Shown here: piece by piece, positions 2,409 to 9,934 of the stretch
Layout: each line of letters begins with the position of its first letter
Position numbering within the stretch: the first letter of the stretch is position 1
Assembly: GCA_947479185.1 (NCBI GenBank)
Contig: CANJYY010000043.1
Coordinates: 1-12,499 of the forward strand
Length of the DNA stretch: 12,499 nt
Direction of reading: 5' to 3'
Origin: Caulobacteraceae bacterium
GTDB taxonomy: Bacteria > Pseudomonadota > Alphaproteobacteria > Caulobacterales > Caulobacteraceae
The notes under the pieces: model-generated
Seen by the model: the letters and a program-made list of their open reading frames with translations, nothing else
Told to the model about the DNA's origin: nothing
The model's database searches: none
Made by a program: the position numbers and the translations under genes

Positions 2409-3104
2409 ATGAGTTTCTGGCGCACCATAGCAGGCCTCGCGGCGCGTCGCGTCGACGACGCCGAATGCCCCGACTGTCCTCCCGGCCCCCCGGGAGAGGA
2501 CCCCGCCTTCACGACCGCCGTCACGGCGCTCGGGGCCAAGCTGGCCAAGGCGGACGGCCGGGCCGACCAGGACGAGTTCTACGCCTTCTCCCTCGTGTTC
2601 CAGCCCGACTCGGGGTCGGAGCGCAACGTCCACCGCCTGTATGATCTGGCGCGCCAGACGACGCGGGGATTCGAAAGCTACGCCAAGCGACTCGCCAAGC
2701 GCTACAGAAGTTGCCCCCAGTTGCTCGAGGACGTGCTGGACGGGCTGTTCCACATCGCCCGGTCCGACGGCGCGGTGACCAGCGACGAGCTGGCCTATCT
2801 GGAGACGGTGTCGGACCTGTTCGGCTTCTCGCCGCTGACCTTCCGGCGGCTGAAGGCGACCCATCTGGGGGCCGGGGCGGACGACCCCTATGTGATCCTG
2901 GGCGTGCTGCCCGACGCGGACGACGCGGTGGTGCGCGCCGCCTGGCGCGAGCAGGTCTCGGCGTCGCATCCCGACCGCGCGCGGGGCCGGGGTCTGCCGG
3001 CCGAGTTCATTGAGGTGGCGGAAACCAAGACCGCCTCGATCAACGCCGCCTTCGACGCGATCATGCAGGAGCGCCGGGAACTGGCGCTGGAAGGCGCCGC
3101 CTGA
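2409..3104 (+). CDS. TerB-like/J-domain protein (DjlA-type co-chaperone)
   Basis: A 231-residue protein. Residues 36-150 form an all-helical TerB-like module with two acidic repeats, KADGRADQDE (47-56) and ARSDGAVTSDE (117-127), a pattern typical of this metal-associated fold. Residues 158-225 are a J domain starting DDPYVILGV, with the diagnostic HPD at 187-189, the motif by which J proteins stimulate DnaK ATPase. The DjlA family pairs these two modules in the same order, but this protein has no N-terminal membrane anchor, so it is probably cytoplasmic or peripheral. A CPDC motif at 20-23 is a curiosity. I chose ATG 2409 because the J-domain/TerB protein then begins with a normal MSFWRT start; an in-frame ATG at 2367 would run back over the start of the divergent oxoprolinase gene. 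No strong Shine-Dalgarno is visible. Family and J domain are secure; the client protein is unknown. Confidence 0.85.
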   Translation: MSFWRTIAGLAARRVDDAECPDCPPGPPGEDPAFTTAVTALGAKLAKADGRADQDEFYAFSLVFQPDSGSERNVHRLYDLARQTTRGFESYAKRLAKRYRSCPQLLEDVLDGLFHIARSDGAVTSDELAYLETVSDLFGFSPLTFRRLKATHLGAGADDPYVILGVLPDADDAVVRAAWREQVSASHPDRARGRGLPAEFIEVAETKTASINAAFDAIMQERRELALEGAA

Positions 3105-3146
3105 ACGGGCAGACGCCGATTTCGCACCCGTTCGGCATGTGTTCAG

Positions 3147-3176
3147 TTGACGTTCAGCGGTTAACAACAAGATAGT
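3147..3176 (+). promoter_or_regulatory. Putative housekeeping promoter for the small membrane protein gene
   Basis: TTGACG at 3147-3152 and GATAGT at 3171-3176 are separated by 18 bp, in an AT-rich patch that stands out from its surroundings. The start codon at 3216 lies about 40 bp downstream. TTGACG is a good alphaproteobacterial -35; the -10 is approximate (4 of 6 to TATAAT). Assigned by eye. Confidence 0.5.
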
Positions 3177-3215
3177 AACACGTGGTCGCGCCTCTCGCGG
3201 CCGACCGAGGACAAG

Positions 3216-3512
3216 ATGGACAGATTGAACTCTGCGGGGGGTTCTCGTTCGGCCTTGAAGGGCCTGGTCTGGCTGGCGGGCGCGCTCGCCACCTGCGCCG
3301 CGCTGGCGGTCGGGGCCGTGCTGGCGGTGTTCGCCGCGGCCACGGTTGTCCTCATCGCCCTGATGTCCAGCGCGCTGCTGGGCCTGGCTGGCGTCGCGAT
3401 GCGCGCCAAGCGCACCGTCCGCTCCGCGCCGACCGGCGATCCCGACATCATCGAGGCCCGCAACGTCGGCGGCCACTCCTGGGTCGCTTACGGCTGGAAC
3501 GAGCGGCGGTAA
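3216..3512 (+). CDS. Small two-helix inner-membrane protein of unknown function
   Basis: A 98-residue protein with a short polar N-terminus, then a long hydrophobic stretch (about 16-60) rich in Ala, Val and Leu that is best read as two membrane helices, then a basic patch (MRAKRTVR, 62-69). The cytoplasmic tail holds DIIEARNVGGHSWVAYGWNE (77-96). The aromatic SWVAYGW tail looks like the conserved part, and I recall similar small proteins in Caulobacteraceae, but I know of no assigned function. GAGGA at 3207-3211 is spaced four bases from the ATG and supports the start. The gene has its own promoter-like sequence upstream and does not appear to depend on the J-protein gene before it. Reality as a gene is likely from the Shine-Dalgarno, the promoter and membrane topology; no function is offered. 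Confidence 0.75.
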   Translation: MDRLNSAGGSRSALKGLVWLAGALATCAALAVGAVLAVFAAATVVLIALMSSALLGLAGVAMRAKRTVRSAPTGDPDIIEARNVGGHSWVAYGWNERR

Positions 3513-3625
3513 CGCGCCTGGCGGCAACCGTCTCGCCTCGACCTCTTTCCTTCTAAATCGCTGCCGGGATGATCCTGGCGACCCTTTCCTCCGTAAGCCT
3601 GCTGTTCAACGGCCGGGGAGGAACC

Positions 3626-4018
3626 ATGTCGCGCCAGGACGCCAATGACATTCTGCGGCCAGTGGTTATCGGCTGGTGTTTCGCAGGGCTGATCGCAATA
3701 CCGCTCGCAGTCTACACCGATTTCCTCGGCGGGTGGCGCTGGCCTCCATACAACGCCATCTATGACCAGATGATCGTCAGCATCTACGTGGCGGTCGGCG
3801 TCAGCGCTGGTCTCGCCATCCGGACCCCGATGAAACATCGGAGTTTTCTCTGGTTCATCGTCTTGTCCAGCTACCTTCATGGCCTCGTGATGTTGTTCCA
3901 CGCGCTGGAAGATCACACCCACATGCACCACCTCATCGGCGACGTGTGGATATTGCTGGGCGCCACGTCGCTGGCCTGGCCGCTTTGGCGCACCCGTGCT
4001 GCCGTCACGGACAGCTGA
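3626..4018 (+). CDS. Four-helix membrane protein, DUF6632-like
   Basis: A 130-residue polytopic protein with predicted helices near 13-33, 47-66, 73-95 and 104-122. The order PPYNAIYDQMIVSIYVAVG (40-58), a polar turn RTPMKHRS (66-73), and a helix containing SSYLHGLVMLFHALED (81-96) matches the DUF6632 pattern as I remember it (Tyr-Met-Ile-x-x-Ile-Tyr, then a W/S-S-x-x-H-x-x-x-M helix). No biochemical role is known to me. A histidine cluster (H92, H97, H99, H101, H102) between helices three and four could bind metal; this is inference. I chose ATG 3626 because GGGGAGG ends five bases before it; an in-frame ATG at 3569 has no such site. Base composition is visibly less GC-rich than in neighbouring genes, which may indicate acquisition or just membrane-protein codon needs. 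Confidence 0.72.
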   Translation: MSRQDANDILRPVVIGWCFAGLIAIPLAVYTDFLGGWRWPPYNAIYDQMIVSIYVAVGVSAGLAIRTPMKHRSFLWFIVLSSYLHGLVMLFHALEDHTHMHHLIGDVWILLGATSLAWPLWRTRAAVTDS

Positions 4019-4104
4019 TCGCAGGCCGTCGGCAACGTGACCCTTGCACCACCGCGCGCCGCACAGCATTGTCGCGGCTTCAAACAAGTGTTCGGGAGAG
4101 AAAC

Positions 4105-4392
4105 ATGATCGGCGTAGTGGCGACTTTGACGGTGGCCGAGGGCAAGGGCCCCGACCTCGAAGCGGTGTTCGCGGACCTCGCGGCCAAGGTGAAGGCCAAT
4201 GAATCCGGCTGCCTGATGTACCAGCTGACCAAGAGCCGCACCGAACCCAACGTCTACAAGGTGCTCGAGATGTATGCCTCGCAGGAGGCCCTGACCGCCC
4301 ACGGCGGCACCGACTACTTCAAGGCCGCCGGCGCCGGCATCGGCGCCTGCCTGGGCGGCCGTCCGTCGATCGAATACCTCGACGCGGTCTGA
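4105..4392 (+). CDS. Antibiotic biosynthesis monooxygenase (ABM)-fold protein, YgiN-like
   Basis: A 95-residue protein, typical length for a single-domain dimeric alpha-beta ferredoxin-like ABM protein. Family landmarks are visible: an N-terminal strand (MIGVVATLTV), the helix with LAAKVKANESGCLMYQL (25-41), the strand YKVLEMYAS (51-59), and QEALTAHGGTDYFKA (60-74), the usual E-A-L-x-x-H-x-x-T-x-x-F region. Family members include cofactor-free quinol monooxygenases and haem-degrading enzymes, but many are uncharacterised, so the substrate is not assigned. GGGAGAG (4094-4100) precedes the ATG by four bases. The stop is followed four bases later by the start of an acyl-CoA dehydrogenase, so the two are almost surely co-transcribed and translationally coupled. 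This suggests a shared role in oxidation of an organic acid or aromatic compound. Confidence 0.85.
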   Translation: MIGVVATLTVAEGKGPDLEAVFADLAAKVKANESGCLMYQLTKSRTEPNVYKVLEMYASQEALTAHGGTDYFKAAGAGIGACLGGRPSIEYLDAV

Positions 4393-5682: not shown

Positions 5683-6648
5683 CTAGCGCGCGGTCACGAA
5701 GGCCGAGGACACCCAGCCGCGGTTGCCGTGTTCGTCGTCCACTTCCATCCAGACGCCGTTGCGGCCGCCGGTGGGGTAGAGGATCGCGCCCGTGGGCACG
5801 TTCAGCACCATCGAGGCTGTCGGGCTCGGGCCCGAGCGCATCGGCATCGACTGGGTCGCCACCATGGCCGCCGGGCCGGCGTTGGCCGAGGCCTGTTCGC
5901 CGGTCGGCAGGGACCCGCCCTGGGCGTAGTGGATCAGGTCGATGAAGGCGTTGAAATAGGCGGCCGTGATGACCTTGCCGATCTCGGTGTTGCTGTAGCC
6001 GCCGCCGGCCGCCGCGCCGAAGCCGGTGCTGCCCAGCGCGCCGCCGCCGACGCCGAAGCCGATGTCGGTCTTCTTGGCGGTGCCTTCAGCGACATAGAGC
6101 TGCTCGGTCGTGCGGGCGTCGACCACGGTGATGATCACCTGGGCCTCGGCCTTCTTGGTGCGGATCTGGCCGGCCAGGGCGCCGAAGCCGCCGGGGATGA
6201 AGCTGCCCGCGACGGCGCCGATGGCGCTGCCGCCGGAATTGGAGTTCGAGTTGGCGATGTCCGGCACGAGGAAGAAGTCGGCCGCGACCACCTGGCCCCG
6301 GCCGATGTTCGAGCCCCGGGCCAGGTCGCCGGAGCCGGCCAGTTCACGTTCCTGGCCACGCATGGCCAGGCCGGCGTTACGGTCAACGACCCGGAAGCAG
6401 CCCGAGCGCGAGGCGAACAGCTTGATCAGCGATTCCGGGCTGGAGAGGCCGAGCTCGGTCCACCATTGCTTTTCCGGCTCCTGGATGGCGATCACGCCGA
6501 GCGGCCGGTCACATTTCGGCATTTCCGGCGTGGCGGCGTTGGCCGGCTTCTTCTTGTCCATGCCGTATTGGGCCCAGGCCGGGCCGGCCGGGGCGATGAC
6601 CATGGCCGCCAGGGCGACCCCGACCACGCCTTCAAAGATCTTGCGCAT
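5683..6648 (-). CDS. Exported CsgG/HfaB-like protein with C-terminal SH3-like segment
   Basis: A 321-residue protein. Residues 1-26 are a Sec signal peptide (positive MRK, hydrophobic core, AWA cleavage before Gln27). It ends in AWA-Q with no lipobox cysteine, unlike E. coli CsgG, so the product should be soluble periplasmic or inserted by other means. The body (about 45-245) has the CsgG-like order: GVIAIQEPEKQWW (51-63), a SGCFRVVDR strand (82-90), VVAADFFLVPDIANS (120-134), a Gly/Ala-rich insertion, AQVIITVVDART (169-180), and a long helix ending YFNAFIDLIHYA (231-242). Residues about 279-321 resemble a bacterial SH3 repeat (LNVPTGAILYP to RGWVSSAFV). Cys46 and Cys84 could form a disulfide. 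GGAGGGAA seven bases upstream supports ATG 6648. CsgG relatives form secretion pores or organise envelope assembly; here the role is unassigned. Confidence 0.82.
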   Translation of the reverse strand: MRKIFEGVVGVALAAMVIAPAGPAWAQYGMDKKKPANAATPEMPKCDRPLGVIAIQEPEKQWWTELGLSSPESLIKLFASRSGCFRVVDRNAGLAMRGQERELAGSGDLARGSNIGRGQVVAADFFLVPDIANSNSNSGGSAIGAVAGSFIPGGFGALAGQIRTKKAEAQVIITVVDARTTEQLYVAEGTAKKTDIGFGVGGGALGSTGFGAAAGGGYSNTEIGKVITAAYFNAFIDLIHYAQGGSLPTGEQASANAGPAAMVATQSMPMRSGPSPTASMVLNVPTGAILYPTGGRNGVWMEVDDEHGNRGWVSSAFVTAR

Positions 6649-6800: not shown

Positions 6801-8657
6801 TCAGGCGCTGGCGACGAGGTCGGCGATCGCGGTCGGGTGAGTGAAATAGACCAGCAGTCCGGCGTCATCGAGCGTCTGGAACCGCACATTGGGCAGGCCG
6901 CCCCAGATGATTTTCGAGTCGGGCAGGACCAGGTGGTCGCACTCGGTGATCGTCCAGCGCTCGCCGCCGACATTGGAGGGCACCTCCCAGCCGGCCACGA
7001 AGGCGCGGTGCTCGGCCGAGAACCCGGCGCTTGACCGGGCGAACATCGCCTGGGCGTCGCGCACCAGCGACTCCATGACGCCGGGCGTCTTCAGCGCCGC
7101 CAGGTCGCAGGGGATATGGGTCAGCGACTGGCGCATGACCTTTTCCATCAGGTCGGAGCGGGTCTGGCGGCGCAGGATCTCGCCGACCAGATCGATCATG
7201 TGCGGGTTTTCCATGAACGCCCGGGAGAGCACGCTCATCATCGAGGTCGGCAGGCGCACGCTCTGCCGGTTTTCGGCGCTGGCCGGCCACTTCGGATTGA
7301 CCGCTACGCCGGCCACGACCCGGTCGGGGTGGAGGCAGGCGAACAGCATGCCGGCCGGTGTGCCTGCGTCGCGGATCAGCAGCTTGGCGCGGTCGATGCG
7401 CAGGGCGTCGACAACCCTGGCCATGTCGTCGGCCGCCTGCTCCAGATAGGGCATGGCCGCGACGTCGGTCAGGCCGAATCCGGGCCGCTGCGGCACCAGG
7501 GGGCGATAGCCGCGCGCGTGCAGCGCGACGACCAGCGCCGGCGGCAGGCGCCGACCGGTGGTCGCGCCGTGCATGACCAGCACCGGCTTGCCGCTGCGCG
7601 GGCCGTAGTCGATCACCGCGATACGGCGGTCGCCCGAGGCGACGACGCGCAGGCGGCCGTTGGGGTCGGCCGGCTCGAGCACCGTCTCGGCCGCGCCGGA
7701 CAGCGCCGCCAGGGTGCTGCTCTCGGCGGCCAGCCGCACCAGATCCTTGGCCTTGTTGACCCCGGTCTTGGCGAAGACCGACTTGAGCTGGCCACGCACG
7801 GTCGCGTCCTTGACCCCCAGAGCCTCGGCAACCTCACGGGCGGTCAGGCCCTGGGCGAAGCGGGCGGCGGCACGCGCCTCGGCGGTTGTGGCGCCGAAGG
7901 TGGTGGCCAGCACGGTCTCGAGCGACGTCGGCGACGCGTGGTCGCCGCACATCAGGTCCATCATCCGGCGCACCAGGTCGGGCGAGCGACGGGCGCCGGC
8001 CTTCTTCATCGCCTTCTTGAGGGCTTCGCGGGCGGTCTCGCGACCGACGCCGATGCGGGCGGCGGCGGCTTCCAGGTTCGGCGCGTCGAGCAGGGCCTCG
8101 GCGAGGCGGGCCTCCAGCGGCGTCAGGCCGAACGCCTCGCTGGCGCGGGCCGACAGGTCGCTGGCGCGCGAGGGGGCGAAGCAGAGCAGGGCGATTCGTC
8201 GGGTCGGTCCGGCGAGGGCGGCGCGGCAGGCGTCGGACAGGGGCCAGCCGGCCGCGGCCTCGCGCGAGCTGGCGCAGGCGGCCAGGGCGGCGCCGTTGGC
8301 CCCCTCGACCAGGCCGGTGGCCTGCCCGTCGCGCAGCGCCAGCCGGACCAGCCGGCGAAAGGCGGCCAGATCGGGCTGGCCGCCGAACCACTTCGAGAAG
8401 ACCTCGTCGGCCAGGGCGAGCTCGCCGCCGGCCTCGACGATGGCCACGCCGATGGCAGAGCGCGGCGCAACGGTCGCCGATCCGCGGGCGGTGGCGATCT
8501 GCGACGCTTCGGTCAGGGCGGCGGTCAGAGCTTCGGGATCGCGGTCCAGCGCCCAGGCCAGCGCGGCCCAGTCTTCAAGGATGGCCTGGGACGGACGTCC
8601 CTCGGCCAGCCTCTCCCGCATGATCTCGGGAAAGCCGTACTCCAGTTTCTTCAGCAC
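6801..8657 (-). CDS. Regulator with PAS-like region, two LuxR-type HTH domains and an alpha/beta-hydrolase domain
   Basis: A 618-residue fusion. Residues 67-160 resemble a PAS fold (SAIGVAIVEAGGELALADEVF). The first LuxR/GerE-type HTH is at about 176-232 (FGLTPLEARLAEALL, then recognition helix GVGRETAREALKKAMKKAG). The second, at about 254-312, is FGATTAEARAAARFAQGLT with GVKDATVRGQLKSVFAKTG. Residues about 345-618 are an alpha/beta-hydrolase fold: oxyanion HG (363-364), PQRPGFG (389-395), nucleophile elbow LLIRDAGTPAG (426-436), acid CDHLVLP (573-579), and a C-terminal helix start at DDAGLLVYFTHP (597-608). By this alignment the nucleophile is Asp430, the acid Asp574, and the usual GH histidine is Leu601, so ordinary hydrolase activity is doubtful. 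The start is GTG 8657, fixed by GGAGG at 8665-8669. Most likely a ligand-responsive DNA-binding protein controlling the divergent oxidoreductase gene. Domain calls are firm; the loss of catalysis is inferred. Confidence 0.85.
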   Translation of the reverse strand: MLKKLEYGFPEIMRERLAEGRPSQAILEDWAALAWALDRDPEALTAALTEASQIATARGSATVAPRSAIGVAIVEAGGELALADEVFSKWFGGQPDLAAFRRLVRLALRDGQATGLVEGANGAALAACASSREAAAGWPLSDACRAALAGPTRRIALLCFAPSRASDLSARASEAFGLTPLEARLAEALLDAPNLEAAAARIGVGRETAREALKKAMKKAGARRSPDLVRRMMDLMCGDHASPTSLETVLATTFGATTAEARAAARFAQGLTAREVAEALGVKDATVRGQLKSVFAKTGVNKAKDLVRLAAESSTLAALSGAAETVLEPADPNGRLRVVASGDRRIAVIDYGPRSGKPVLVMHGATTGRRLPPALVVALHARGYRPLVPQRPGFGLTDVAAMPYLEQAADDMARVVDALRIDRAKLLIRDAGTPAGMLFACLHPDRVVAGVAVNPKWPASAENRQSVRLPTSMMSVLSRAFMENPHMIDLVGEILRRQTRSDLMEKVMRQSLTHIPCDLAALKTPGVMESLVRDAQAMFARSSAGFSAEHRAFVAGWEVPSNVGGERWTITECDHLVLPDSKIIWGGLPNVRFQTLDDAGLLVYFTHPTAIADLVASA

Positions 8658-8668
8658 AGGTCTGCCTC

Positions 8669-8691
8669 CATCCGGGTCCCTCGACCGGATG
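8669..8691. promoter_or_regulatory. Inverted repeat 1 in the divergent intergenic region
   Basis: CATCCGG (8669-8675) and CCGGATG (8685-8691) form a perfect 7-bp inverted repeat with a 9-bp spacer. It abuts the GGAGG ribosome binding site of the regulator gene, so a bound protein or an mRNA hairpin here could repress the regulator itself. Confidence 0.45.
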
Positions 8692-8728
8692 CCTCATCAG
8701 TGTAGCGCGGATCGGGGCGGGGAGAACA

Positions 8729-8751
8729 GGACTCTCCGAACAGCAGAGTCC
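8729..8751. promoter_or_regulatory. Inverted repeat 2 in the divergent intergenic region
   Basis: GGACTCT (8729-8735) and AGAGTCC (8745-8751) form a perfect 7-bp inverted repeat with a 9-bp spacer, the same geometry as the repeat centred exactly 60 bp away at 8680. The arms differ in sequence, so the two need not bind the same protein. Its position midway between the divergent genes is typical for an operator. Confidence 0.45.
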
Positions 8752-8786
8752 CCATACCGGGGAAGAGAATTTCTGCGTGGCGGCGC

Positions 8787-8806
8787 GTTCGAACAAACGT
8801 TTAAAC
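8787..8806. promoter_or_regulatory. AT-rich cluster of three palindromes before the oxidoreductase gene
   Basis: Three 8-bp perfect palindromes are packed into 20 bp: GTTCGAAC (8787-8794), AAACGTTT (8795-8802) and, overlapping it, GTTTAAAC (8799-8806). This AT-rich island in GC-rich DNA lies 28 bases before the GTG start. TTTAAA (8800-8805) could serve as a -10 element, in which case a bound regulator would overlap the promoter. Confidence 0.45.
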
Positions 8807-8833
8807 CGGAGCCTCAACCAACCGGAGCCGCCC

Positions 8834-9934
<1,101 letters not shown>

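Follow-up and report, generated by a model that had tools for sequence, protein, structure and literature searches.

A predicted bacterial regulator whose hydrolase-fold domain lacks the catalytic histidine, encoded beside a divergent Old Yellow Enzyme gene

Background

GID1, a plant protein that acts via DELLA and is thought to derive from hormone-sensitive lipases, has an alpha/beta-hydrolase fold without the catalytic His and is a non-catalytic small-molecule receptor, as described in passages of PMC4875939 and PMC3531792. The first of these passages relates that activity was lost once the His became Val (PMC4875939), and the loss of the catalytic His also appears in the second (PMC3531792). 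The strigolactone and karrikin receptors D14, DAD2 and KAI2 likewise employ a hydrolase fold as a receptor, and in the account given by the same passages the Ser-Asp-His triad of D14 and of DAD2 is intact (PMC4875939, PMC3531792).

Here we analyze HydR, the name given here to a 618-aa bacterial regulator for which we propose such a use of the fold. HydR resembles GID1 in lacking the catalytic His. Unlike GID1, it comes with helix-turn-helix (HTH) domains of its own, shows Asp instead of Ser and lacks a conserved acid, and unlike D14 and DAD2 it has no intact triad. GID1-type receptors are the closest known parallel to the way in which HydR may work, and the likeness is one of mode of action only. 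In comparison with haloalkane and fluoroacetate dehalogenases and epoxide hydrolases, HydR is fused to HTH domains and lacks the His, a conserved acid, and the halide-binding residues. The 290-aa hydrolase of Microlunatus sagamiharensis (9wlv) is also unlike HydR, with a Ser elbow and a Gly-His by alignment, and without any HTH. VqmA and EL222, in chains of 191-228 residues, have a PAS domain followed by a LuxR-type HTH, an order that the PAS-like domain and the first HTH of HydR may share; unlike HydR, they presumably have a single HTH and no hydrolase-fold domain. A search of the open-licence literature found no report of such a regulator in the parts of the texts that it covered.

Locus and domain layout

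The window, i.e., the whole stretch of 12,499 nucleotides that was analyzed, is one contig (C43) of a source assembly of 2.77 Mb in 410 contigs that is 74% complete. HydR is encoded on the minus strand (6801..8657), from a GTG start and without internal stop, and full-length homologues exist. The named relatives come mainly from Caulobacter and Phenylobacterium, with many metagenome-assembled genomes among them.

The original prediction proposed a hydrolase fold fused to DNA-binding domains, and this architecture is borne out: a PAS-like domain is followed by two LuxR-type HTH and then by the alpha/beta-hydrolase fold. The PAS-like domain (residues 66-160; 8178..8462, minus strand) is suggested by a predicted model (pLDDT 88.4, pTM 0.84) and by Foldseek matches, the top ones being the PAS-HTH proteins VqmA and EL222 (E 1.5e-4 to 9.2e-4). 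The VIA rows for residues 66..236 have an rmsd of 7-9, which spans two domains, and a Pfam scan of HydR returned no PAS profile match. The two HTH (residues 171-237 and 249-315; 7947..8147 and 7713..7913, minus strand) are of the LuxR/NarL four-helix type and are predicted to bind DNA. The C-terminal domain (residues 334-618; 6804..7658, minus strand), which we call a pseudo-hydrolase domain, belongs to the alpha/beta-hydrolases by its fold and by its Pfam profile, Abhydrolase_1 matching residues 357-459 with an E-value of 2.9e-9 and 37.4 bits (cut-off 25.8).

Conservation of the active-site positions

We gathered homologues by similarity in a protein search with HydR (best 120 of 306 matches), and the counts out of 121 given below refer to the matches listed. 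A set of 166 unique sequences was selected by the presence of R429, D430, and Q390, which are thus constant in it by choice; the unbiased counts for the elbow are those of the 121 homologues and of 51 ORFs from named loci. Rows with identical ends were removed before counting (from 266 to 231), and the preparation of the set of 166 omitted the first part of L020, L048, L050, and the second ORF of L067. Adding P0049, which has His at position 390, to these HydR rows makes a set of 167.

All the motif residues named in the original prediction lie where it placed them. The nucleophile elbow of HydR reads L426-L-I-R-D430-A-G-T-P-A-G436, and the placement of an Asp at the nucleophile position, as first suggested, is well founded. 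In the predicted model, the strand 424-430 stops at D430 and a helix starts at 433, and the alignments set D430 opposite the elbow Asp of the dehalogenases 3u1t, 6f9o, and 5bov and opposite the Ser of 4y7d and 9wlv. Arg429 and Asp430 (7368..7373, minus strand) are each found in 121 of the 121 homologues listed. The Arg-Asp elbow also occurs in 50 of the 51 elbow-covering ORFs (54 ORFs read) from the loci of named genomes, the sole exception being L002, a paralogue in the source genome.

The place where hydrolases have Gly-His is occupied by G600-L601 (6855..6860, minus strand), within the sequence D597-D-A-G600-L601-L-V-Y-F-T-H607-P608. A profile alignment sets G600-L601-L602 opposite the Gly-His-Leu of 9wlv, in a second stretch that alone scores 1.7 bits. 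Residue 601 is never His, neither among the 121 homologues listed (79 Leu, 28 Phe, 10 Met, 3 Tyr, and 1 Trp) nor in the 166 selected sequences (95 Leu, 35 Phe, 15 Met, 12 Val, 4 Tyr, 3 Ile, and 2 Trp), which agrees with the proposed replacement of the catalytic His by Leu. The alignment of orthologues that had been suggested as a check thus gave conserved D430 and a conserved non-His residue, and none of the orthologues aligned combined Ser with His.

The proposal that D574 (6936..6938, minus strand) is the catalytic acid is poorly supported. It is present in HydR, in the turn C573-D574-H575-L-V-L-P579, but residue 574 is scattered among homologues, with Asp or Glu in only 74 of 166 sequences, and an acid at either 574 or 575 is found in 88 of 167. 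Residue 454, 24 positions after the nucleophile, which we take to be equivalent to the acid position of some dehalogenases, is Asn in 157 of the 167 sequences and acidic in none. Hence, no acid is conserved at 574/575 or at 454 among the 167 HydR sequences.

Other residues of the site are nearly constant. The oxyanion-loop motif H363-G364...G368-R369 (7551..7571, minus strand) is kept in the 166 sequences almost throughout (H363 in 166, G364 in 164, G368 in 166, and R369 in 165). Among the 121 homologues listed, H363 and R391 are present in all, R369 and Q390 in 120 (Q390-R391, 7485..7490, minus strand), and D411 is invariant; most relatives outside the clade have Asp or Glu at 390. The constancy of H363, R391, D411, R429, and D430 argues against mere decay of the site, and the conservation of D430 rules out that it is a decayed neutral residue.

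Relatives, sister group and tree

In profile searches, 23 of the 119 family genomes and 7 of the 385 class genomes proved to contain relatives. A broader profile had matches in 54 of 385 class genomes and 61 of 299 phylum genomes, not all of which are fusions, and the relatives that we fetched are a sample of at most 30 loci per genome search. A search with the hydrolase domain alone gave 17 matches, nearly all of them pieces of the same family as judged by length and identity, and the standalone relatives were therefore taken from the genome searches instead. All 12 standalone relatives fetched keep both Ser and His. L143, which carries Ser and Phe, is not counted among these 12; it is a fragment of 266 aa from the end of a contig and a near-copy of the fusion L125. 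Among the 45 other non-HydR proteins of at least 430 aa, the length from which we speak of fusions even if some show no HTH in the profile range (e.g., L107), His accompanies Ser or Asp in 9, and at least one member of the pair is missing from each of the others. In L070-L074, five of these 45 proteins, Asp and His are retained and a Ser stands one position past the elbow; if this later Ser is the nucleophile, the pair is kept in 14 of 45 instead of 9.

The paralogue L002 (881-2755, plus strand, on contig C154 of the source genome) has the layout of HydR, a short elbow with the sequence RGGAQ and without nucleophile, and Arg in place of the His. A search with this protein (best 120 of 183 matches, the paralogue included) delineated a sister group. 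Among these best 120 of 183, the elbow is one residue shorter, with a gap at 430 in 120 of 120, residue 601 is Arg in the 119 of 119 sequences that cover it, and R369 and D390 are found in 120 of 120. The sister group retains the fold and the HTH without a nucleophile residue, i.e., the same layout is kept without one.

We built a quick, unrooted tree of 85 hydrolase domains, without dehalogenases. The HydR rows were first thinned until all were less than 62% identical, which left 27, and the remaining sequences until they were less than 85% identical; L142 was too short and was dropped. As the tree is drawn from its midpoint, we infer the direction of change. The 36 rows of HydR and its sisters group together with a support of 100, and all of them lack His. 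Rows outside the definition by R429, D430, and Q390 were also placed on the tree, and of these only P0049 entered the HydR group. Over the whole tree, the presence or absence of the His requires at least 8 changes. The hydrolase domain of HydR would have descended from Ser hydrolases.

Two further groups of fusions combine an Asp elbow with Gly-His (L087, the same locus as L094, and L097/L098/L100), and their sequences suggest that they are possibly active Asp-type hydrolase regulators. A single clade of all Asp-elbow rows of the tree (HydR, L081, L087, and L097) was rejected with a p-AU of 2.2e-5, in a test made on the quick tree, with long branches and for a group named after the tree had been seen. 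Asp430 would have arisen separately from the other sampled Asp-elbow fusions, in a lineage where no His is seen.

The divergent Old Yellow Enzyme gene

The gene divergent from HydR encodes an Old Yellow Enzyme (OYE) family reductase (8777..9934, plus strand; PF00724 with 224.5 bits for a cut-off of 27). Its true start is probably the GTG at 8834, close to where homology begins. The motif Glu-Leu-His-Gly-Ala-His is present in 19 of the 19 OYE sequences read (the source included, the partial L016 left out), and we take its His-x-x-His to be the OYE active-site motif.

The pairing of the regulator with this gene, already pointed out in the original prediction, extends well beyond the source genome. 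The OYE gene is adjacent and divergent in 19 of the 19 named loci whose HydR is at least 53% identical. At the remaining 28 named loci where HydR has a match, the available DNA contains no OYE, several of these loci being cut by contig ends. In the same 19 loci with an adjacent OYE, some of which also reach contig ends, we found a nearby ACAD gene in 11 cases and a CsgG-like gene in 5. Five genomes of the family, the source included, have a HydR match above 900 bits, and OYE adjoins it in all five. Relatives of the OYE (E <= 1e-60) are found in 89 of the 119 family genomes, mostly without HydR; being far commoner than HydR, the OYE does not need it. The divergent adjacency in 19 of 19 loci makes the OYE, an ene-reductase, a likely target of HydR, and probably the main one.

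The divergent promoter region between the two genes covers 8658..8833, its end depending on the inferred start of the OYE. It contains a conserved block, AGAAATTCT in the minus-strand reading (8766..8774), which is a candidate operator. By raw count, this block is present in 10 of the 10 closest loci (the source included) and in 0 of the 10 more distant OYE-linked loci, and its absence from the latter means that no operator is established. A second block, GTTTAAAC (8799..8806), is a candidate operator or promoter element; again by raw count, 8 of the 10 closest loci have a TTTAAAC-like match, as do 6 of the 10 more distant ones, and its position varies.

The surroundings of the pair vary. In six loci (L004 and L007-L011), a second HydR with 50-54% identity lies beyond the OYE, and in L004, L007, and L010 a VOC-like gene stands between the two. 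In L020, the second copy of HydR is split into two ORFs (8001-9056 and 9078-9863), which is either a broken gene or an assembly error. A Pfam scan of ten neighbouring proteins identified DHFR, SMP-30 lactonase, ECH, SDR, kinases, and an antiporter, left three proteins unmatched, and gave no clue to the ligand. In L008, a DHFR gene and an SMP-30/gluconolactonase gene (2782-3297 and 3363-4274) are near the HydR-OYE cluster, and genes of 303 aa, the size of this lactonase gene, are near the OYE in several other loci. In the window, HydR is adjoined by a gene for a CsgG-family protein (5683-6648, minus strand), with LpoB below the cut-off and a weak SH3-like match.

A putative non-catalytic ligand sensor

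The hydrolase fold of HydR has no general-base His, no conserved acid, and not the Ser of its standalone relatives. Considering that other residues of the site are kept and that sister regulators have no nucleophile, these data are better explained by non-catalytic ligand binding than by enzyme activity or by a trap of dehalogenase origin. Our main reading, to which we give a probability of roughly 60%, is that HydR is a one-component transcriptional regulator of Caulobacteraceae with a non-catalytic hydrolase-fold sensor, and that it probably controls the OYE gene. The pseudo-hydrolase domain would bind a small molecule without turnover, the ligand-bound fold would pass the signal to the HTH domains, and HydR would in this way control the divergent OYE gene. 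With the OYE as the probable target, its substrates and compounds related to them are the probable ligands, and a candidate output gene makes ligand discovery practical. In the fusions sampled, these results point to bacterial regulators whose hydrolase fold has mostly lost the catalytic pair and now most likely senses the ligand within a transcription factor. This would be a bacterial counterpart of the conversion of an enzyme into a receptor in plants. Standalone Ser-His relatives, part-degraded fusions, and sites rebuilt with a hydrophobic residue or Arg at the His position are all available for study.

The fold could instead be a structural, dimerisation or partner-binding module without small-molecule ligand, sensing being left to the PAS-like domain. 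The latter is indeed a second candidate sensor, and the loss of catalysis would be equally expected. However, few residues of the protein vary as little as those of the active-site motifs, and at the His position each clade has settled on a residue type of its own, either hydrophobic or Arg, a pattern suggestive of tuned specificity; we regard a purely structural module as unlikely.

The original prediction drew on haloalkane dehalogenases, whose site is made of five residues. HydR has the elbow Asp. The catalytic His and acid are gone, as are the residues at 365 and 431, which we take to be the halide-stabilizing positions (Asn or Trp after the HG, and Trp after the nucleophile): among the 167 sequences, 431 is Ser, Gly, Ala, Asp, Thr, Ile, or Phe, and 365 is mostly Ala, Thr, Tyr, Phe, Ser, or Gln. 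Thus, only the Asp of the five is retained. The scores of curated dehalogenase models for HydR are far below their cut-offs, with 41.9 bits for NF002043 (265), 35 for NF002873 (466), and 23 for NF002938 (241). Sequence scores are nearly equal for the dehalogenase 6f9o (8e-14) and the Ser-elbow hydrolase 4y7d (8.3e-13), and the best fold match of the domain is 9wlv, with its Ser elbow, at a Z of 27.9 (24.1 or lower for the others). The fold match and the Ser-His pairs of the fetched standalone relatives disfavour dehalogenase descent as the leading view, and kinship with haloalkane dehalogenases is weakly supported. Of the sensor model as first formulated, sensing stands as the likeliest role, while this kinship and the covalent trap that went with it receive little support.

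The trap deserves consideration on its own. The OYE family acts on electrophiles, and the principle behind HaloTag is that loss of the catalytic His traps a covalent ester on Asp. A natural counterpart would be a covalent sensor in which Asp430 attacks an electrophilic ligand and the ester, persisting without His-activated water, switches the regulator and with it the transcription of the ene-reductase by which the electrophile is removed; evolution itself would then have produced a HaloTag-like receptor. The OYE neighbour in the 19 loci and the presence of D430 in all homologues listed, in spite of the absent base, speak in its favour, as does the entry for 8sdd, a His-to-Asn fluoroacetate dehalogenase solved with an Asp-glycolyl intermediate. 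Against it, the acid is not conserved, the halide-binding positions vary, the sister regulators have no nucleophile residue, and with no His in any of the 36 rows of the HydR group, no Asp-His ancestor is seen there; moreover, Arg429 and Arg369 could neutralise D430. The invariance of D430 leaves the covalent model some weight, and we hold it to be quite unlikely.

A non-catalytic sensor calls for another role of Asp430, for which positions 369 and 390 give indications. In the 65 rows outside the HydR definition, an acid at 390 is found in 29 of the 31 with R369 and in 12 of the 34 without it, an association with a p-value of 7e-7 that is uncorrected for relatedness. The 55 tree rows with R369 comprise 28 with D430 only, 25 with an acid at 390 only, one with both (L081), and one with neither. 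The covariation of 369 and 390 is clear in raw counts, with too few independent pairs on the tree, and the exclusive pattern of acids at 390 and 430 is essentially one clade-level event, in HydR rows that were picked by those residues. Read most simply, these sequences suggest that R369 may have exchanged the acid at 390 for Asp430 as the partner of its ion pair. Most likely, Asp430 is a fixed residue of the pocket or of an ion pair, together with Arg429 and Arg369, and not a working nucleophile. Against a plain pocket role, its constancy exceeds what a generic pocket residue needs.

It is very unlikely that HydR is still an enzyme working through another base (H607, or a water held by Arg and Asp), with regulation secondary: H607 (6837..6839, minus strand) is frequent (105 of the 121 homologues listed and 149 of 166), H363 is universal among the 166, and Ser-His or Asp-His is retained by some of the HTH fusions outside HydR, but H607 lies six residues past the His position, is absent from 17 of 166 sequences and is kept in 103 of 120 sisters that lack the nucleophile (best 120 of 183), which makes it an unlikely substitute base, and H363 also occurs throughout the Ser-His set (20 of 20), as part of its oxyanion motif. 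The other His that had been named as a possible member of the triad, at 575, is present in 12 of 167 sequences and was likewise rejected as a substitute base.

Further fusions and partial matches

Many of L120-L143 belong to a phylum group (f184) of mostly 2-3 Mb genomes that are rich in HTH-hydrolase fusions, in which a Ser elbow often goes with one of six residues in the His position (His, Asn, Phe, Ser, Ala, or Tyr). Tandem HTH-hydrolase genes were found in L067 (1471-3240 and 3250-4734) and in L090 (1492-3402 and 3430-4848). The source genome itself has a third, weak match on contig C372 (L003; 51-245, minus strand), to residues 336-401 and within a 508-aa frame.
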